NCBI GenBank assembly: GCA_029261965.1
Contig: JAJDAH010000248.1
Coordinates: forward strand, 1 to 37,636
Direction: 5' to 3'
DNA from: Polyangiaceae bacterium
GTDB lineage: Bacteria > Myxococcota_A > Polyangia > Polyangiales > Polyangiaceae
DNA: 37,636 nucleotides
Part shown: one piece after another, positions 11,074 through 22,391 of the stretch
How positions within the stretch are numbered: position 1 is the stretch's first letter
Layout: each line of letters starts with the position of its first letter
Notes under the pieces: model-generated
The model's database searches: none
What the model was told of the DNA's origin: nothing
What the model saw: the letters and a program-made list of their open reading frames with translations, nothing else
Made by a program: the position numbers and the translations under genes

Positions 11074-12807
11074 CTAGAAAGGGTTGTCCGGGATGTCCGG
11101 CTCGACCGGCGCGGCCGGCGGCTTTTTGACGGGGTTCGGCCGAGGGGCGGGCTTGTGAGCCGGCGTCGGCGGCGTGGCGACCTTCTCTGGCTCGATCGTC
11201 GGTTCCGGGTCGTCCTGTTTTTCGAGCTTGACCGTGATCGCGTCCGGCGCCTGGGAGTCGATCCGAATCGATCGCGCCTGGTAGCCGTCGGCTTCGACGG
11301 TGAGCGTGCCGCTTTCCCCGAAGCCGAGCCGTTCGATGGTTCGAACGCCTGGCGCAAGCTCGACACCGTCGAGCTTCAGCACGACGCCGTTCGCCGGTTC
11401 GGTCTCGATGGTGACCAAGTCCGCCGTGGGCGCGGGCGTGTTTGGCACGGTGGCGCCTTCCGGTGCCGGGGAAGGACCGAAAAGTTGATCCTTGAAAACG
11501 AAGGCGCCCCCGGCGAGCAAGACGGCGGCGGCCACCAACACCGCCCCGAAGACCAACGCGTTCGCTTTTCCGGGCGGCGGGGTCGAAGTCACTTGTGGTG
11601 GCGGCGTGCGACTACCCGGTGCGCTCGTGGATGTCGGCTGGGACGCGGCGGTTACTCCAGAAACTCCAGAAATCGACGGGAGTGAGCCTCGATTGGGGGC
11701 GCTCAGCGTGGCTGACCCCTGTGACTCGGGACCGGTGACCGACGACTCTCCGGGCCCGACGGACATGGGGGCCATGGCCGAAACGGCGGCGGCGTTCTCC
11801 ATTGCCTCGCGGATTCGTCGCTGGCGTTCCTCGACGATGTGGCCGGCGCGCTCGCGCACGACCGAGCCGATCTGTGCTCTCGTGACCACTCGCCCCGATT
11901 GGGCGATCCACTCTTCGAGCGCGTGCTGCATGCGCTCCGCCGTTGGGAACCGTTGCATCGGGTCGGGCGACATCGCGCGGAGCGTGATCGCCTCCAGACC
12001 GGGTGGATAACCCGAGAACATCTTGCTCGGGGCGTCGTATCGGCACTCGATCACCTGTTTGAGCGTCGCGAGCTGGTTTTCGCCCGCGAACGGCCGATGC
12101 CCGGTGCCCGCTTCGTACAAGCAGATGCCCAGCGCGAAGATGTCGCTACGACGGTCGACCCGTGCACCGGCCGCCTGCTCCGGCGACATGTACGCTGCTT
12201 TGCCCTTGATTTGCCCCGCGGTCGTTTGCTCGGAGGAGCTCCCGAGGGCTTTTGCCACGCCGAAGTCGGTGACCTTCACCGTGCCGTCGATGCCCACGAG
12301 AATGTTCTGGGGCGACACGTCTCGATGGACGACATCGAGGCGTTCACCCTTGTGGTTGCACAGCTCGTGGGCCGCGTGCAGTCCGGCGGCAGCGTCGGCG
12401 ATGATCCGAGCCGCCGCGCGCGGGTTGAGACGCTTGGGGACCGGCTTGCCACCCTCCGGAGGCTTGACCTTGACGAGTCGGGCAAGGCTCTCGCCGTTCA
12501 CCCACTCCATGGCCAGATACAGCACGCCCTGGTCCTCGCCGAGGTCGAAGATCTCGCACGCGTTCGGGTGATGCACGCCCGAGGCGACGCGGGCTTCGTC
12601 GAGAAACATCGTTTCGAACTGCGGATCCGCGGCGAGGGACGGGATGATCGTCTTGATCGCCACGACCTTGCTGAAGCCGCGCTGACCGAACTGCTGCGCA
12701 CCCCAGACGCGCGCCATGCCCCCCTGCGCGATCCCCACCAGGATTTGATAGCGGCCAAGCTGGGTGCCTGGCCGGACATTTCCCGTCTGTCCCGGACTGG
12801 ATGTCAC
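11074..12807 (-). CDS. transmembrane Ser/Thr protein kinase with PEGA domain
   Basis: This encodes 577 aa. The kinase domain spans about 20-300: glycine loop GIAQGGMARVW, ATP-binding Lys52 (VAIKTI), catalytic loop HRDVSPQN (161-168), DFG at 181-183, and APE-like YMSPE at 206-210. HRDVSPQN instead of HRDLKPxN is a common variant in myxobacterial kinases and keeps the catalytic Asp163. A disordered Ser/Pro linker leads to a single membrane span (about 416-436). A periplasmic PEGA domain follows (about 464-530: LVTIETEPANGVVLKLDG) and then a Lys/Pro tail. It probably senses an envelope signal and phosphorylates cytoplasmic targets. It is 78 bp downstream of a small lipoprotein gene and upstream of the TPR and Gly-rich lipoprotein genes, which likely form one operon. 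Confidence 0.95.
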   Translation of the reverse strand: MTSSPGQTGNVRPGTQLGRYQILVGIAQGGMARVWGAQQFGQRGFSKVVAIKTIIPSLAADPQFETMFLDEARVASGVHHPNACEIFDLGEDQGVLYLAMEWVNGESLARLVKVKPPEGGKPVPKRLNPRAAARIIADAAAGLHAAHELCNHKGERLDVVHRDVSPQNILVGIDGTVKVTDFGVAKALGSSSEQTTAGQIKGKAAYMSPEQAAGARVDRRSDIFALGICLYEAGTGHRPFAGENQLATLKQVIECRYDAPSKMFSGYPPGLEAITLRAMSPDPMQRFPTAERMQHALEEWIAQSGRVVTRAQIGSVVRERAGHIVEERQRRIREAMENAAAVSAMAPMSVGPGESSVTGPESQGSATLSAPNRGSLPSISGVSGVTAASQPTSTSAPGSRTPPPQVTSTPPPGKANALVFGAVLVAAAVLLAGGAFVFKDQLFGPSPAPEGATVPNTPAPTADLVTIETEPANGVVLKLDGVELAPGVRTIERLGFGESGTLTVEADGYQARSIRIDSQAPDAITVKLEKQDDPEPTIEPEKVATPPTPAHKPAPRPNPVKKPPAAPVEPDIPDNPF

Positions 12808-13317: not shown

Positions 13318-13890
13318 GTGGACCGAGGCACGCGGGTTTTCTGGGGCCTGATCTTCGTGTTGTTGGGTGCGGGAGTTTTCTTCGCATTCAACGCAGAGAC
13401 GCGCCGTCGCAGCGTTCAGGCGAAAAAAGCGGCCACGGTTCAGACCGGTGAAATCGTGAGCTTTGTCCGCGCGGTCGACGGTGACTCAATCGTCGTTCTG
13501 AATCCGACTGGAGAGCGCGTCAGCGTTCGCCTGCTCGGAGTGAAGGCCTTCGCTCACGAGGGGAAGAACGCCACAGCCGTGCATGGTCGAGCGGCGTTCC
13601 AGATGCTCGAGCAGAAGCTGACGGACAAGGCCATCCGCGTGCGGCTCGAGACGACCGACAAACATGGCCGCGCGATCGCCGAGCTGTTCGTCGAGAACCA
13701 GAACCTCGGTCGGACGATGGTCCGAGAGGGGCTCGTGCTCGTCTACACCGTTTACCCGTTCAACTCGATGACGGACTACCTGGAGGAGCAGGCCACCGCC
13801 AGGGCGGAGAAAAAAGGGCTCTGGGGCAACTCGGAGACCGTCAAACAAGCCGAGCTCTTGGGTCGAGAGTGGCAGAGGCAGAGCGAATGA
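13318..13890 (+). CDS. membrane-anchored staphylococcal-nuclease-like protein, active site degenerate
   Basis: This encodes 190 aa. A single N-terminal membrane anchor (about 7-25: VFWGLIFVLLGAGVFFAF) places the rest outside the cytoplasm. Residues about 45-170 have the SNase (thermonuclease) fold signature: FVRAVDGDSIVVL with the DGD acids, VSVRLLGVKAF with Arg71, TDKHGRAIAELFV with Arg118, and ARAEKKGLWG at the end. Aligned on RLxGxDxPE, the calcium ligand corresponding to Asp40 is Lys76 and the catalytic Glu43 position is Ala79. Both arginines remain, and Glu81 lies two residues further on. The protein may therefore be inactive as a nuclease or have a shifted active site. GTG at 13318 is chosen to start just before the anchor. 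Its stop overlaps the channel's start (ATGA). Confidence 0.85.
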   Translation: MDRGTRVFWGLIFVLLGAGVFFAFNAETRRRSVQAKKAATVQTGEIVSFVRAVDGDSIVVLNPTGERVSVRLLGVKAFAHEGKNATAVHGRAAFQMLEQKLTDKAIRVRLETTDKHGRAIAELFVENQNLGRTMVREGLVLVYTVYPFNSMTDYLEEQATARAEKKGLWGNSETVKQAELLGREWQRQSE

Positions 13891-14939
13891 TTCCTACGCT
13901 CTTCCGGCTCATCGCACGGCGCGTCTTTTGTAATCCGTTGGCGCCGCTTCGCATCGGCGTGTTGTTGGCGGCGGTGTTGTTCTACGGGTCGAGCGGTTTT
14001 CTTTTTTTCGAGCTCCCCGAGAACCCCGCTCTCACCTGGGGAGACAGCATTTGGTACTCGGTCGTGACGGTGACGACGGTCGGGTACGGCGACCTGTATC
14101 CCTCGACGTTTGGCGGGCGCGTCATCGTGGCGATGCCGCTCATGTTTTTCGGTATCGGTCTTCTCGGCTACCTACTTTCGGTCGCCGCGAGCGCGCTCGT
14201 AGAGGCGAAGACCAAGGAGGCTCACGGAATGGCGAATCTCAAGCTGAAGGACCACCTGATCGTCCTCAATTACCCCGGCCTCGGCAAGCTCGAGAACGTC
14301 CTGGACGAACTCGCGGCCGACCCGGCGTTCGGAAAGTCCCGGGATGTGGCGCTCATCGACGAGAATCTGACCGAGCTACCCCCAGAGCTCGTTGCCCGCG
14401 ACGTGCACTATGTCCGCGGCAACCCCAGCCGTGACGAAACCCTGGCTCGTGCCAGCATCGACGACGCTGCCTACGCGATCGTTCTGAGCCGACTCGGGAG
14501 AGATCCTCGGTCAGACGACCAGAACGTCGTCGTCGCCCTCGCCATCGAGGCGCGCGCACCCAAGGTCCACACGGTCGTGGAATGTGTCGACGCGGCTACC
14601 GAGGAGCTGCTCAAGAAGGCTGGCTCGGACTGTGTCGTTTGCACTTCTCGGTTCGACGCGCACTTCGTCAGCGCCGAGCTCTTGAACCCCGGGGTGCAGG
14701 AAGTCATCGCCCAGCTCACCAGCAACCTCCGCGGTCAGCAGATCTACGTCACCCGTTTCGCCGGATCGAAGACCGTGGCGTTCACCGACATCGAGGCCAA
14801 GTGTCGGGAGCTGGCACACATTGCCCTGGGCGTCCAAAAGGACGGCAAAACCACGCTCAACGTCGATTCGGACCAAAAAGTCGTTCCGGGCGACGGCGTC
14901 ATCACGATGGGCGCGTCCCGGCTCGCCGAGCTGAGCTGA
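13887..14939 (+). CDS. potassium channel with cytoplasmic RCK domain
   Basis: This encodes 350 aa. Two membrane helices (about 22-42 and 78-102) flank a pore loop with the selectivity filter TVTTVGYGD (61-69). A cytoplasmic RCK/TrkA-N Rossmann domain follows (about 122-240: DHLIVLNYPGLGKLENVL, VALIDEN, VHYVRGNPSRDETLARASIDDA) and then an RCK-C-like part (about 265-350). This is the MthK-type layout: K+ flux gated by a ligand bound to the RCK ring. The nucleotide-binding glycine motif is altered (NYPGLGK in place of GxGxxG), so the ligand may differ. Start ATG at 13887 overlaps the stop of the nuclease-like gene by 4 bp, implying coupled expression and a joint function. Confidence 0.94.
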   Translation: MIPTLFRLIARRVFCNPLAPLRIGVLLAAVLFYGSSGFLFFELPENPALTWGDSIWYSVVTVTTVGYGDLYPSTFGGRVIVAMPLMFFGIGLLGYLLSVAASALVEAKTKEAHGMANLKLKDHLIVLNYPGLGKLENVLDELAADPAFGKSRDVALIDENLTELPPELVARDVHYVRGNPSRDETLARASIDDAAYAIVLSRLGRDPRSDDQNVVVALAIEARAPKVHTVVECVDAATEELLKKAGSDCVVCTSRFDAHFVSAELLNPGVQEVIAQLTSNLRGQQIYVTRFAGSKTVAFTDIEAKCRELAHIALGVQKDGKTTLNVDSDQKVVPGDGVITMGASRLAELS

Positions 14940-15227: not shown

Positions 15228-16688
15228 ATGCAGCGCAAGCACAACCTCCTCGTCCTTTCGGATGTCCACCTCGGCAGTGATTTGGTTCACCACTCTCGGC
15301 CGGATGCCCCCGAACGCGCCGATTCGAGTCTCCGCAGGGATCGGGATCTGGCTGCGATGCTCGAATGGTATCGCGAGCATCGCGTGGGCAAGAAACCTTG
15401 GCGGTTGGTCATCGCGGGCGACTTCGTCGATTTCGTCGGCATGAGTGTCTCCGTGCCACAATCGAGGGTCGATATGCCGGGGGACGCTCTCGACTTGACA
15501 GAAGAGGAGCGCGCCCACGGGCTAGGTGGAGCCGTCGAGCATGCGGTTCTCAAATTGCAGATGGTGGGCACGCACCACGCCGAGGTGTTTGCGAGCCTCG
15601 CCCGATTCGTCGCCGACGGAAATCTCCTCGTGGTCGTTCGGGGGAATCACGACGTCGATTTTCATTGGGAGCCCGTGCAGCGCGAGTTTCTCTCGCTGTT
15701 GAGCGGTCACGCGCCACTCGAGCAAAGCTGTGTCGAGTTCGCCCCGTGGTTTTACTACGAAGAGGGCGAGATCTTCATCGAGCACGGGCACCAGTACGAC
15801 AGTTTCTGTTCCTACGAGAACGTCATGCATCCCGTTTCACCGCGTGACCCTCGCCGTTCCTCGCGCTCCATCTCCGACGTGTTGCTCCGGTATGTCGTAC
15901 GACCCACCCGCGGTATGCGGGAGAGCGGTCACGACGACATGACGATCGCGGACTACTTGCGGTTCGGCGCCCGGCTTGGAGCGACCGGCATGCTCGCGCT
16001 CGCACGGCGATTCTTCGGCGCGCTAGGTGCGCTCTTTGCGATCTGGCGCTACCAATTCGGCGGCGCGGCCGATTGGGTTCGTCAGGAGCACGATCGGAAG
16101 ATGCGCTTGCTCGCCGAGGCGCGTCAGATCAGCGAGTCGCGCTTGCGAGCTCTGGCAAAGCTTCAGCGTCCTCCGGCGACGAAGAGTCTGCTGATGATTC
16201 TCGCTTCGGTCATGCTCGACCGGATCGTCGTCGCCGTGCTCGGTCTCGCCCTCGTCGTGGCCGTCTTCTACTTCACCCCGACGTTCGAGTACGCCACGCT
16301 CGCCGCCGTCTTCGCGGCGAGCCTCGCGGCTGGGCTGGGCATCGCGTGGGCGCGCGCTCGAGGCCCGTTGGATGCGAGCGGCGAGCTGCGTGACTGCGCA
16401 CCTCGAGTGGCCAGGCTCTTCCCGGCGGCTTTCGTCGTCATGGGGCACACGCACTTGCCCGAAGTTCGTCAAGACGCCGACGCCGAAACGACCTACGTCA
16501 ACCTCGGCGCCTGGGCGGAAGAGGACAGCGAGGACGGGTGCGCACCCGCACTCCCAGCGACCAGAACACACCTGGTCGTTCAGAGTGTCGACGGTGAGCT
16601 CGTCGCCGAGCTGATGAAATGGGGCGACGCTGGGCCCGAGCGGTTCCAGCCGGGCTACCGGAGTGGCGCCGATCCGACGACGGCCTGA
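15228..16688 (+). CDS. calcineurin-like metallophosphoesterase with internal membrane hairpin
   Basis: This encodes 486 aa. All metal-binding motifs of the family are present in order: SDVHLG (Asp12, His14), GDFVDF (Asp65, Asp68), GNHD (139-142), EHGHQYD (His186, His188) and VMGHTHLPEV (His407, His409). The two last motifs are separated by more than 215 residues. This insertion holds a basic, helical stretch and two hydrophobic segments (about 333-348 and 354-374). The catalytic domain is therefore interrupted by a membrane hairpin, leaving both parts on the cytoplasmic side. The motif set resembles LpxH-type lipid phosphohydrolases, which would suit a lipid substrate at the membrane, but that is inference. 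The ATG at 15228 begins right at the fold. Confidence 0.9.
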   Translation: MQRKHNLLVLSDVHLGSDLVHHSRPDAPERADSSLRRDRDLAAMLEWYREHRVGKKPWRLVIAGDFVDFVGMSVSVPQSRVDMPGDALDLTEEERAHGLGGAVEHAVLKLQMVGTHHAEVFASLARFVADGNLLVVVRGNHDVDFHWEPVQREFLSLLSGHAPLEQSCVEFAPWFYYEEGEIFIEHGHQYDSFCSYENVMHPVSPRDPRRSSRSISDVLLRYVVRPTRGMRESGHDDMTIADYLRFGARLGATGMLALARRFFGALGALFAIWRYQFGGAADWVRQEHDRKMRLLAEARQISESRLRALAKLQRPPATKSLLMILASVMLDRIVVAVLGLALVVAVFYFTPTFEYATLAAVFAASLAAGLGIAWARARGPLDASGELRDCAPRVARLFPAAFVVMGHTHLPEVRQDADAETTYVNLGAWAEEDSEDGCAPALPATRTHLVVQSVDGELVAELMKWGDAGPERFQPGYRSGADPTTA

Positions 16689-18556: not shown

Positions 18557-18648
18557 CCGCGCTCTCGACCAAAGCCCGTGCTGAGCGATTGCAGATTTCA
18601 CCGAGATCGAGGACGCTAGCGCGACTAAAAACCAGTGAATTCGCGCGC

Positions 18649-20343
18649 ATGAGTCAGCCCACCGGAAACCCGCCGCCCCTGTCGCACGGAACCATCGTCA
18701 GCGACCGGTACGAGATCCGCCAAAGCCTCGGCAAGGGTGGAATGGGTGAGGTGTTTCTGGCGCACGATCGCAGCACGCAGGAGACGGTCGCGCTGAAGAT
18801 CGTTCGCGCCGAGGCTCGAATGCCCGGGGACGACGAGGCGCTTCGCCAAGAAGTCCTGTTGGCTCGCTCGATCGGCCATCCGAACGTCTGCCGTGTTCAC
18901 GACTTGGCGCCGAGCCAATGGGGGCCGATTCTCGTGATGGAGCACATCGCGGGACAAACGCTCCACACTCATATCCGCAGGAAAAAGGCTCAAGGCGGCT
19001 ACACCGCCGACGAGTTCCGGAAAATCGCCAGCGAAGCGTCCGCGGGGCTCGCCGCGGTGCATGCCCAGGGTTTGGTTCATGGCGACTTGAAGCCCGGCAA
19101 CGTCATGGTCACCGCGGATCGCGCGATCATCCTGGATTTTGGTTTTGCTCAAGAGCGGGCGCGTACCAGCAAGCGCCGCCCGGGAGCGCCTCCGGATGGC
19201 GGTACCCCAAACTACATGGCGCCCGAGCGCTTGCGGTCGGGGGGAGCCAGCGAGGAGGACGATATCTACGCCCTCGGCCTGACACTCTGGGAAATGTGGA
19301 CCTGTCGGGTCCCCGAGCCCGGCTATCGGCCGCGCGCCAAGCCGATGCGATCGCAGATCATGTTCGACGTGCCCGCGGGTTTGAGCGTCGACGAGGTCAA
19401 ACAGGTCTTCCGTTGTCTCACCGACGACCCCGCGATGCGCCCGCAGGCGCGACATCTTCGGTTCCACAACCCGAGCGCGCTGACGACGAGCCAAATTCAG
19501 ATCCCGCGAGAACGACTCTCTCCGGGCCCCCCGCCCGGCCGGAACGTGTCCGAGGGGTTCACACCCGCCTCGCAGGCACTGCTGCTCACGTTCGCGAGCA
19601 ACGCCCCGCAGGCGGCCGGAAGCGTCTACTCACTCGACAAACCCACGCTGACGCTCGGTCGCCGCAGTAATCAGGACATCACGATGCCCGAGGCGACGTG
19701 TTCGGGCTCCCACGCGATCGTCAAGTGGCAACAGGGCAGCTGGATCATCGAAGACACGGGCAGCACCAATGGCACCTACGCGGACCACAGCTATGAGCGC
19801 AAGAAGTCCGTGCCGCTCTTGCACGGCGGCGAAGTCCAGCTGGGAGAATGCCGCATCAAACTGGTGAGCTTCCAGGAAGGCTCTCCGGCCCACGAGCGGG
19901 CGCGGGCGTACTTGTCGCGGCGAGACGGTCTCACCGGCCTCTCCGCGCGGGACCAGTTCATGCGTCAACTCCAGGACGACCTGTCGTTCGCCGAGTGGGA
20001 TGCCGTACCGCTGAGCGTCGCCCGCTATGAAGTGCGCGGACCGAACCGCCTCGTGAGCGATCGACCGACGATTTTGGAGATGCTCGCTCTGCGGCGGGCA
20101 GCGCAACGGGTCATCGAGCTCACGGAAATGATGGTGCTCAGCATCATTCCCGTGACGGCTGGGCGTGTCGGCCCGCTCAAGTTCGCCGTGGCGATTACTG
20201 GTCCGGGTATCGAAGAGGCGCGGCACCTGGTCGAGCAGATTGTTTCGCAAGTTCAGGGACTCATGCCGGAGGCGCTCGATCTCGCGGCGACAATCGTGAA
20301 AGCCGAAAAGGGTCAGCCCGTTTCCGCGCTCGTGGATGGTTGA
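18649..20343 (+). CDS. Ser/Thr kinase-FHA-degenerate GGDEF fusion protein
   Basis: This encodes 564 aa. The kinase domain spans about 21-275: GKGGMGEVF, ATP-binding Lys50, catalytic loop VHGDLKPGN (143-151) where the usual HRD Arg is Gly145, DFG (163-165) and YMAPE. An FHA phosphothreonine-binding domain spans about 325-408 (LTLGRRSNQDI, SGSHAIV, DTGSTNGTY, GGEVQLGECRI). The last 140 residues resemble a diguanylate cyclase: RRDGLTGLSARDQFMRQL (424-441) is the typical start. Where GGDEF should stand the chain reads GRVGPLKFAVAITG (505-518), so it should not make cyclic-di-GMP. No membrane span is present. Loss of the HRD Arg suggests activation-loop phosphorylation is not needed for activity. 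ATG 18649 begins a short linker before the kinase. Confidence 0.9.
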   Translation: MSQPTGNPPPLSHGTIVSDRYEIRQSLGKGGMGEVFLAHDRSTQETVALKIVRAEARMPGDDEALRQEVLLARSIGHPNVCRVHDLAPSQWGPILVMEHIAGQTLHTHIRRKKAQGGYTADEFRKIASEASAGLAAVHAQGLVHGDLKPGNVMVTADRAIILDFGFAQERARTSKRRPGAPPDGGTPNYMAPERLRSGGASEEDDIYALGLTLWEMWTCRVPEPGYRPRAKPMRSQIMFDVPAGLSVDEVKQVFRCLTDDPAMRPQARHLRFHNPSALTTSQIQIPRERLSPGPPPGRNVSEGFTPASQALLLTFASNAPQAAGSVYSLDKPTLTLGRRSNQDITMPEATCSGSHAIVKWQQGSWIIEDTGSTNGTYADHSYERKKSVPLLHGGEVQLGECRIKLVSFQEGSPAHERARAYLSRRDGLTGLSARDQFMRQLQDDLSFAEWDAVPLSVARYEVRGPNRLVSDRPTILEMLALRRAAQRVIELTEMMVLSIIPVTAGRVGPLKFAVAITGPGIEEARHLVEQIVSQVQGLMPEALDLAATIVKAEKGQPVSALVDG

Positions 20344-20376: not shown

Positions 20377-21075
20377 ATGGCTGGACCATCGGGACCGACC
20401 AGACCGACGCTACCCTCGTGGAGCGAGCCGGGATTCCGCCGCCTCGGCGTTGGGGGCGGTGGTGGTGGGGATCGACCCATCCGCGCCCAGCTCGTGGTCG
20501 CGCTGACCGCTGGGCTCATCTTGCTCGCCGTGCCGCTGTACCTCTGGCGGCGCCCGAGCGGCGTCGAAAACCTCCCACAAGACGCGGGCACGGTGCCGGT
20601 TCAGACCGTGCCCGCCATCATGGAGGCCGGCGCCGCCGTCGTGAAAAACGCCGAGTCCAAAGGACGCGAGCCCATCGAGCTTTCGGCGGTGCAGCAGGTG
20701 AAGTGTTCCGCGTCACCCGGAGCGAGGGGACAGACCGGGAACCTTTGTGACCGGCTGGCGTTTTTCGAGGAGGCCCTCGCCAAGGCGATCCGCGCCACCT
20801 TCGACTGTGCGCCGAAAACTGGGCGCCGCGGCAACGTCAACTACGTGCTCGCGGTCGATTTCCGGCGCCGAGGTCTTCGGGTCTATCCGGGAAAAAGCGG
20901 TCAGTGGCACGGTCCGCAGGCCAAACGAGCCGCCGCTTGCGTGCGCAAGGCTCTCCCCAAACCCGAGTGGGGCGCAATGCGCCATCAGTACAGCTATTAC
21001 CTCATAGCAATCATGGCCACGTACCTCGCGCCTCACGAGCTGGCCGATCCGGACGCTCCCCCCACGTTCGAGTGA
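20377..21075 (+). CDS. single-span membrane protein with Cys-containing periplasmic domain (AgmX-like?)
   Basis: This encodes 232 aa. After a Gly-rich N-terminus a membrane segment lies at about 37-57 (AQLVVALTAGLILLAVPLYLW). The periplasmic part has a core at about 100-215, with cysteines in KCSAS, LCDRL, DCAP and AACVRKAL and a pattern 'GNVNYVLAVDF... AAACVRKALPKPEW'. This pattern recalls the AgmX/PglI C-terminal or TonB-like domain of Myxococcota gliding and transport proteins, but the match is weak. It starts 33 bp after the kinase-FHA gene, so the two probably share a transcript and may act in one pathway. Confidence 0.72.
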   Translation: MAGPSGPTRPTLPSWSEPGFRRLGVGGGGGGDRPIRAQLVVALTAGLILLAVPLYLWRRPSGVENLPQDAGTVPVQTVPAIMEAGAAVVKNAESKGREPIELSAVQQVKCSASPGARGQTGNLCDRLAFFEEALAKAIRATFDCAPKTGRRGNVNYVLAVDFRRRGLRVYPGKSGQWHGPQAKRAAACVRKALPKPEWGAMRHQYSYYLIAIMATYLAPHELADPDAPPTFE

Positions 21076-21215: not shown

Positions 21216-22391
21216 ATGCGACAAAGGGTTCGTGGGGCAGGGGTGCGTCGTCGATTGACGCTGCTCTTTCTGTTGATCTTGACGATGGCGTTCACTGCGT
21301 GTCGATCGGCGCGCAACGACGCGGAGCCGGGCATCGCCCTCCGGGGTAACAGCTCCCCCAGCCAGCTGGCTCCCCAGCCGAAAGGCACCACCAACATGTC
21401 CGCTTCACAAAAGCTCGAGAATTATTCGATCGGTGCCCCGCAGGTCTTCGAGAACCTGACGATATTCCCCGTCACCGCCAAGACGCAGCTCGAGGTCGGG
21501 CCAATGACCACCCTCGAGACCGCGCTCGAAAAGAATCGCGCCGAGGTTCGCGAGCTCGGCGCGGAGGAAGCTCAGGGGCGAAACGATCTGGCTTCGGCCG
21601 AGGTCGGGACACTCATCATCGAGAACCGAGGGGCGGTGCCGATCTACGTGCTGGCGGGTACGATCCTCCAGGGAGGGAAGCAGGACCGTCAGGTGGGGCA
21701 GGACTTCGTCGTGAGCGCCCGCACGACGGCGCCGGTCGACGCCTTCTGCGTGGAGCAGGGGCGGTGGGACGCGAGTCGCGATGGAGAGCACACCAAGGGG
21801 CGCTTCAAGACGATGAAGTCGCTCGCGACGAGCAAGGTGAGAAGCGCGGGCCAGTACGAAAAGGATCAGTCGAAGGTCTGGTCGAAGGTGGCCGAAGCGA
21901 ACGCGTCTCAGGGGAAGAACCCGGAGTCCGGAACACTCGTGGCCACTCTCGCCGATGGGGAAGTGGAAAAGAAGCAGCGTGAGCTCGCGCAGAAGGTTCA
22001 GGGATATCTTCGGCGTGTCTCGCCGCAATCCGACGTCGTCGGATTCGCCTACGCCGTGGATGGGCGCGTGCGCTCGGTTCGCTACTTCGCGAACCACTCG
22101 GTCTACGCGCTCTACCGCGAGTCTCTGGCCAACACCGCGGCCGTGGACGCCATCACCGCCCGCGGGGGCAAACCCGCGAAGTCGCCGCCCAAGGTCAGCG
22201 ATTCGGACGTGCGGCGCTTCGTCCGCGACATCGACGCGGTTCGACAAGCCGAGGCGCGGGACACCAAAGCGGGCAACGTCAACGTCTATCGCGAGTCGAA
22301 GAAGGGGTACGGCTCGAAAACGACCCTCAAGCCGCGGAACGCGGCAAGCGCGAGCCCGGTGGAGCTGAGCTCGGACTACGCATCGAAGTAG
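21216..22391 (+). CDS. ARPP-1 family (DUF6569-like) lipoprotein
   Basis: This encodes 391 aa. The lipoprotein signal (RRRLTLLFLLILTMAFTAC) puts the lipidated residue at Cys29. Residues about 70-300 match the pattern of the ARPP-1 domain as I recall it: YSIGAPQVFENLTIFPV, an acidic helical region, VGTLIIENRGAVPIYVLAGTILQGGKQDRQVG (about 130-161), and the hallmark CVEQGRW (178-184). A helical section with Gln/Lys (SKVWSKVAEANASQGKN) follows, then VVGFAYAVDGRVRSVRYFANHSVY. The C-terminus is basic. No catalytic role is established for this family. The lipid anchor puts it at the envelope. It is convergent with the Omp85 operon's last gene. Confidence 0.85.
   Translation: MRQRVRGAGVRRRLTLLFLLILTMAFTACRSARNDAEPGIALRGNSSPSQLAPQPKGTTNMSASQKLENYSIGAPQVFENLTIFPVTAKTQLEVGPMTTLETALEKNRAEVRELGAEEAQGRNDLASAEVGTLIIENRGAVPIYVLAGTILQGGKQDRQVGQDFVVSARTTAPVDAFCVEQGRWDASRDGEHTKGRFKTMKSLATSKVRSAGQYEKDQSKVWSKVAEANASQGKNPESGTLVATLADGEVEKKQRELAQKVQGYLRRVSPQSDVVGFAYAVDGRVRSVRYFANHSVYALYRESLANTAAVDAITARGGKPAKSPPKVSDSDVRRFVRDIDAVRQAEARDTKAGNVNVYRESKKGYGSKTTLKPRNAASASPVELSSDYASK

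Follow-up and report, generated by a model that had tools for sequence, protein, structure and literature searches.

The aldo-keto reductase fold of Kv-beta, which sits on Kv channels, is a familiar case of an enzyme fold serving as a cytoplasmic channel subunit. In the Ca2+-gated channel MthK, we take D184 and E210 to be residues of Ca2+ Site 1, and in staphylococcal nuclease calcium is presumably held by Asp21 and Asp40. The roles of Arg35, Arg87 and Glu43 in the latter enzyme are described in PMC8436206. PMC9440719 names E212 as a Site 1 residue of MthK and describes a soluble RCK copy made from Met107 of this channel. KefF, a homologue of flavin-binding quinone oxidoreductases, is an ancillary subunit that joins the KTN domain of KefC according to PMC2920069, and PMC5900569 describes degenerate SN domains in Tudor-SN that remain able to cleave RNA when one Ca2+-binding residue is retained. 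No paper describing a pair formed by an SNase-like protein and a K+ channel was found among the open-licence PMC full texts.

Such a pair is encoded in the stretch of DNA analysed here, which comprises 37,636 nucleotides from a Polyangiaceae bacterium and is called the window below. Both open reading frames are present and overlap by an ATGA stop/start, exactly as the preliminary description of this DNA had it, and the following features were assigned to the locus:

13318..13890, + strand: gene for a putative membrane-anchored SNase-fold pseudo-nuclease, 190 aa, GTG start
13336..13395, + strand: predicted single transmembrane helix (residues 7-26), followed by the Arg/Lys-rich flank ETRRRSVQAKK; helix 3-37 in the AlphaFold model
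13447..13827, + strand: SNase domain (about residues 44-170) with D54, D56, R71 and R118
13537..13551, + strand: GVKAF segment (residues 74-78), replacing the metal/base segment D/N-[AT]-P-E
13543-13545, + strand: Lys76 codon
13831..13881, + strand: C-terminal helix (residues 172-188) with Trp185; the Trp185 helix is found in 27/27 family members
13887..13890, + strand: ATGA stop/start overlap of the two genes
13887..14939, + strand: gene for an MthK-like 2TM-RCK potassium channel, 350 aa
14076..14093, + strand: selectivity filter TVGYGD
14229..14231, + strand: candidate internal start Met115 with AAGGAGG upstream (14214-14220), likened to Met107 of MthK
14244..14936, + strand: RCK gating domain, N and C lobes

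In support of the GTG start at 13318, the same start position is usable in the orthologues L003-L010, and in L004-L006 a stop codon lies just 3-5 codons upstream of the equivalent start.

The SNase OB-fold of the first protein was recognised by Pfam, by profile alignment and by structure search. The protein matches Pfam SNase PF00565 (E 2.5e-16), its AlphaFold model has a mean pLDDT of 89, and Foldseek returned staphylococcal nuclease as the best match to this model (E 4.6e-11), with an rmsd of 1.7-2.2 Å over about 130 columns in 38 of the 50 hits listed. Residues were mapped by aligning a profile of 13 relatives to solved staphylococcal nucleases, and each site was then counted in 27 family members and, as controls, in 30 ordinary SNases from the same searches. 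In this alignment G74-V75-K76-A77-F78-A79 of the window protein correspond to L38-V39-D40-T41-P42-E43 of staphylococcal nuclease, so that Lys76 occupies the Ca2+-ligand position and Ala79 that of the general base, in agreement with the earlier assignment. The ligand change extends through the whole family: the Asp40 position is K in 22 members, R in two, and Q, Y or F in one each, with Asp or Asn in 0/27, against D in 22 and N in 8 of the controls (30/30 Asp/Asn). At the Pro42 position, 25/27 members have F or L, the commonest family form of residues 74-78 is G-[IVL]-K-[AS]-[FL], and the position of Tyr85 is taken by His in 15/27 and by Arg in 6/27. The claim about the general base holds for the window protein and less well for its relatives, since this position is acidic in 11 of the 27 (Glu in 3, Asp in 8) and non-acidic in the remainder; Glu43 is therefore lost or changed in 24/27 members, compared with Glu in 30/30 controls.

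At the same time, other parts of the site are retained. The window protein keeps the DGD acids D54 and D56 and both phosphate-contacting arginines, as had been noted before, and within the family D54 is present in 25/27, D56 in 26/27, R71 (Arg35) in 24/27 and R118 (Arg87) in 27/27 members. The SNase-like protein of L044 (752-1426) is extremely degenerate and lacks both the DGD motif and the Arg35 equivalent R71, yet a channel gene lies directly downstream of it; L013 and L092, which belong to the same family f16, keep the DGD and Arg35 equivalents. The genome of the window additionally contains an ordinary SNase (L002 1360-1719) with the segment VDTPE, in which D and E are intact, and no channel was found within the 3.2 kb fetched around it. 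An active site shifted onto Glu81 and a nearby Asp, which the preliminary description had named as the alignment that would tell against a crippled nuclease, was rejected, as position 81 is E in just 2/27 members and never D. Judged by its residues, the SNase-like protein is quite probably a dead nuclease, i.e. one with a dead site; the acidic residue found at the Glu43 position in 11/27 members speaks somewhat against complete loss, and the weight given to a dead site was reduced accordingly. Since RNA cleavage persists in degenerate SN domains of Tudor-SN, the death of the site is something that we infer and do not observe.

The channel gene follows the SNase-like gene directly in 26/26 members found through the SNase-like protein, and with L044, which was found by the channel search, the total is 27 distinct pairs. 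The stop of the SNase-like gene and the start of the channel gene overlap by four bases in 19 pairs and by one base in three (22/27 overlapping); in the other five, the channel starts 2-60 bases after the stop. When 377 genomes of the phylum were searched with the SNase-like protein, 106 matched at E ≤ 1e-3. The first 13 genomes (the window's own included) all reach E ≤ 2.9e-24 and are clearly set apart from the next match, which stands at 1.5e-13; the channel adjoins the SNase-like gene in all of these 13 genomes and is not beside the SNase gene in the other 18 loci fetched in this search. The reciprocal search with the channel matched 111 of the same 377 genomes at E ≤ 1e-15. Among the 30 channel loci examined of these 111, the best 14 (E ≤ 2.2e-69) all have an SNase-like gene upstream, and for the next 16 no upstream SNase-like match is stronger than E 0.013; the stretch searched was about 0.9 kb, shortened by the end of the sequence to about 0.4 kb in L055 and L056. 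A search of the class found 20/240 genomes at E ≤ 2.3e-44, followed by three weak hits near 1e-21; the nine new members all have the channel, that of L090 being cut by the contig end. The 30 ordinary SNase loci, examined over 2.4-6.4 kb, contain this channel in 0/30.

Beyond the phylum, the genome_contigs collection was scanned with patterns built from seven close relatives, so that distant members elsewhere may be missed. Eleven loci were obtained: two hold ordinary SNases and lack the channel, and the other nine are relatives, each accompanied by the channel. Five of the nine belong to genomes already in the set, and the remaining four carry the labels Burkholderiales, Proteobacteria, Comamonadaceae and Verrucomicrobia. 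The pair is thus mainly myxococcotal and is also present in Burkholderiales- and Verrucomicrobia-like contigs. The family is rare outside Myxococcota, judging by the two groups searched: matches as strong as those of true members came from the starting genome alone in the order of L069 (300 genomes, with seven further matches at 1e-20 to 1e-23 that are ordinary SNases) and likewise in the class of L070 (188 genomes). A binning artefact was rejected for L069 and L070, because the best match of a neighbour gene in L069 is 63% in its own order vs 43% in Myxococcota, and that of the immediate neighbour of the pair in L070 is 68% in its own class vs 56% in Myxococcota. As these neighbours resemble the labelled groups more, the pair has probably been transferred between phyla. 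The question posed at the outset, whether the adjacency is conserved in related genomes, was consequently answered in favour of the pair, in Myxococcota and beyond.

Selection on the pair is purifying, as far as codon comparisons can tell. In the closest pair of loci, L005/L006, the SNase-like gene has a dN/dS (NG86) of 0.051 and the channel gene one of 0.073, and the other three NG86 comparisons gave dN/dS of 0.15-0.30 at dS of 0.66-0.79. Decay to a pseudogene is disfavoured by the low dN/dS of the closest pair together with intact SNase-like frames in 27/27 members. The pairwise identities of the two proteins are correlated (r 0.86, Mantel p 0.0001; 26/27 pairs, L090 dropped); correlated distances and low dN/dS are also expected from linkage and shared ancestry. 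In a tree of 26 paired and 8 unpaired channels, the paired label needs two changes, a number as low as this being reached in 0/500 shuffles, and with 13/31 inner branches open the tree is compatible with a single origin of pairing.

The channel protein matches Ion_trans_2 and TrkA_N in Pfam and has two helices, a K+ filter and an RCK domain with both lobes, so that the channel and RCK motifs read initially from the window, TVGYGD included, were recovered. Its best PDB sequence match is MthK (residues 20-343, E 5.6e-16), and its structure model is poor in the pore (mean pLDDT 70). The filter T-[VI]-G-Y-G-D is found in 26/26 paired channels. At the same time, MthK Site 1 is incomplete in these channels: the E212 position is V, I, L or Q in 26/26, the D184 position is N in 14/26 and D in 10/26, and the E210 position is E in 24/26. 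The unpaired relative L046 has the same E-C-V pattern, so the incomplete Ca2+ site is not specific to pairing and by itself gives no pointer to the partner as a sensor. Additionally, an AAGGAGG followed by ATG (Met115) in the channel gene at 14214-14231 of the window forms a possible internal start of the MthK type. Met115 is Met in 24/26 channels and AAGGAG lies upstream in 16/26, these bases also encoding a conserved Lys-Glu; the unpaired L046 has them too.

The surroundings of the pair differ between loci. Among nine loci with 4-kb flanks, no gene except the pair recurs in all, and a larger operon was rejected on these grounds; kinase genes lie in the flanks of L062, L064 and L067, several neighbours are common to L067 and the window, and the closely related L065 and L066 also have neighbours in common. 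In the window itself, a Ser/Thr protein kinase is encoded at 11074-12807 (- strand), with a 65% match near the pair in L067, and a Ser/Thr protein kinase with an FHA domain at 18589-20343 (+ strand), with an 84% match near the pair in L064. A 232-aa open reading frame at 20377-21075, which has no Pfam match, precedes a gene for an ARPP-1 domain protein (21216-22391, E 1.4e-52). A metallophosphoesterase with apparent membrane segments (15228-16688) is encoded 288 bases downstream of the channel, and of the 21 short-flank loci searched only L009 has a piece of a homologue downstream of the pair. Phage or plasmid cargo was also considered and is unsupported by record searches: four phage records matched with at most 66% of the query covered, 3179 plasmid records matched at less than 60% identity throughout, and one of the ten plasmid matches seen among these 3179 is a cyanobacterial thermonuclease with no channel annotated nearby. 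Viral contigs yielded two weak relatives (26-28%), and PADLOC gave no match to a defence family.

A dedicated functional partnership of the two proteins is very likely. We propose that the probably dead, membrane-anchored SNase-fold protein is a dedicated ancillary or sensor subunit of the RCK K+ channel, with its domain in the cytoplasm; because the partnership, the dead site and the cytoplasmic placement have to be taken together, this composite reading is tentative and about as readily doubted as believed. The two genes would give a dedicated two-protein module in which the SNase-like protein, encoded just before the channel, joins it. With an N-out/C-in anchor, the SNase domain would be cytoplasmic and lie close to the membrane face of the RCK ring, and the membrane helix and the C-terminal helix may contact the channel. 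Lys76 might occupy the old metal site and form, with the kept arginines, a cationic pocket that binds an anionic ligand without calcium or cutting, a nucleotide or nucleic acid being the candidate; alternatively, the domain might just brace the RCK ring. Either ligand binding or bracing would alter K+ flux. A bolder version, possible and in our judgement rather unlikely, is that the ligand sensing of the channel has been handed to a retired nuclease on the cytoplasmic gating ring, and that the former active site of this nuclease, where Lys replaces the Ca2+ ligand, binds a nucleotide, a second messenger or a fragment of nucleic acid. If true, this would couple nucleic-acid breakdown or a nucleotide alarm to the membrane potential.

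The same partnership could instead operate with the pseudo-nuclease domain outside, where it would sense extracellular nucleic acid or polyanion and gate the channel from that side. The short N-tail before the hydrophobic segment indeed looks like a signal anchor, signal-like hydrophobic segments occur in 29/30 of the ordinary SNases examined, and the hydrophobic stretch of some family members has a V-x-A-like end. The distribution of Lys and Arg stands against this placement and does not bear out the initial view that the bulk of the protein lies outside the cytoplasm: Lys+Arg are more numerous after the helix than before it in 24 of the 27 members, tied in three and fewer in none, with family means rising from 1.5 ahead of the helix to 3.6 in the 15 residues that follow, some family starts (L014 and L088 at least) having been placed by alignment and not by start codon. 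For the ordinary SNases (29/30 above the hydrophobicity cut; L017, below it, was left out), Lys+Arg average 2.0 before the hydrophobic segment and 1.07 after it, with fewer after than before in 15/29 and more in 6/29, in counts for which the control starts were guessed and the family and control windows were cut by different scripts. Under the positive-inside rule, this distribution favours the N-out/C-in orientation; the rule can fail, and the 6/29 ordinary SNases with more Lys/Arg after the segment resemble the family in this respect. Moreover, the helix (mean pairwise identity 0.35) is about as conserved as the SNase domain (0.38; linker 0.23), with L15 in 26/27 and an aromatic residue at position 22 in 27/27 members, which is easier to reconcile with a helix that has partners than with a signal that is cleaved off. 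A cytoplasmic SNase domain on an N-out/C-in anchor is therefore likely from these sequence features, and an outside domain unlikely.

Three further explanations keep the gene pair and change the task of the first protein. It might be an assembly or stability factor that aids folding, insertion or tetramerisation of the channel and senses nothing, which would suit overlapping genes with the partner encoded first (22/27) and the tolerance of extreme loss of pocket residues in L044; retention of R118 in all members, of D56 in 26/27 and of Lys at the metal position in 22/27 suggests a kept pocket and not a mere scaffold, and we consider this explanation quite unlikely. A nuclease that still works through a rebuilt or metal-independent site, with the channel controlling or following its activity, a stress or defence effector being one example, would account for the DGD motif and both arginines in most members and for the Glu (3/27) or Asp (8/27) at the Glu43 position, and PMC5900569 gives a precedent in the degenerate yet active SN domains of Tudor-SN. 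It is nevertheless improbable, given that the Asp40 position is never Asp or Asn, that position 81 is non-acidic in 25/27 members, that the window protein has Ala79, that L044 lacks most site residues, and that no PADLOC defence family was matched. Finally, the genes may be merely co-transcribed and their proteins act separately. Neighbouring bacterial genes often share an operon without contact between their proteins; here the pairing recurs in every member found, mostly in differing neighbourhoods, and the pair is present as a unit in other phyla, which makes simple co-transcription very improbable.

Under the preferred reading, in which the SNase-like protein is an ancillary or sensor subunit with a cytoplasmic domain, the altered ligand pocket of the partner could fill a gap, namely the stimulus of this clade of RCK channels with an incomplete MthK calcium site. 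A conserved partner would offer a direct handle on channel gating and provide a new example of an enzyme that became a channel subunit, in a pair as small as 190 + 350 residues.

Compared with staphylococcal nuclease (PF00565), the family shares the fold, the DGD motif and the Arg35 and Arg87 positions; it differs in that Asp40 is lost, Glu43 is changed in 24/27 members (to Asp in 8) and the Tyr85 position is His or Arg in 21/27, and it adds a membrane helix with an Arg/Lys-rich flank, a C-terminal Trp helix and an adjoining channel gene. The likeness to MthK lies in the matched stretch, to which the candidate internal start for a soluble RCK copy might be added; in contrast to Ca2+-gated MthK, the paired channels have an incomplete Site 1 and an extra pseudo-nuclease gene beside them. 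Tudor-SN/SND1, as described in PMC5900569, also carries SNase folds with degenerated metal residues, but these belong to eukaryotic multidomain RNA-binding proteins without a channel, some of whose domains cut RNA. KefC-KefF, as described in PMC2920069, similarly joins an enzyme-fold partner to an RCK-controlled K+ pathway, as is proposed here by analogy; KefC-KefF is an efflux system, whereas in the present case an SNase fold with its own membrane anchor stands beside a channel. By this analogy the pair would work like the known enzyme-derived subunits of K+ pathways, but with a different fold and as a separate family. The same holds for Kv-beta, which has another fold, sits on another channel and belongs to another lineage.
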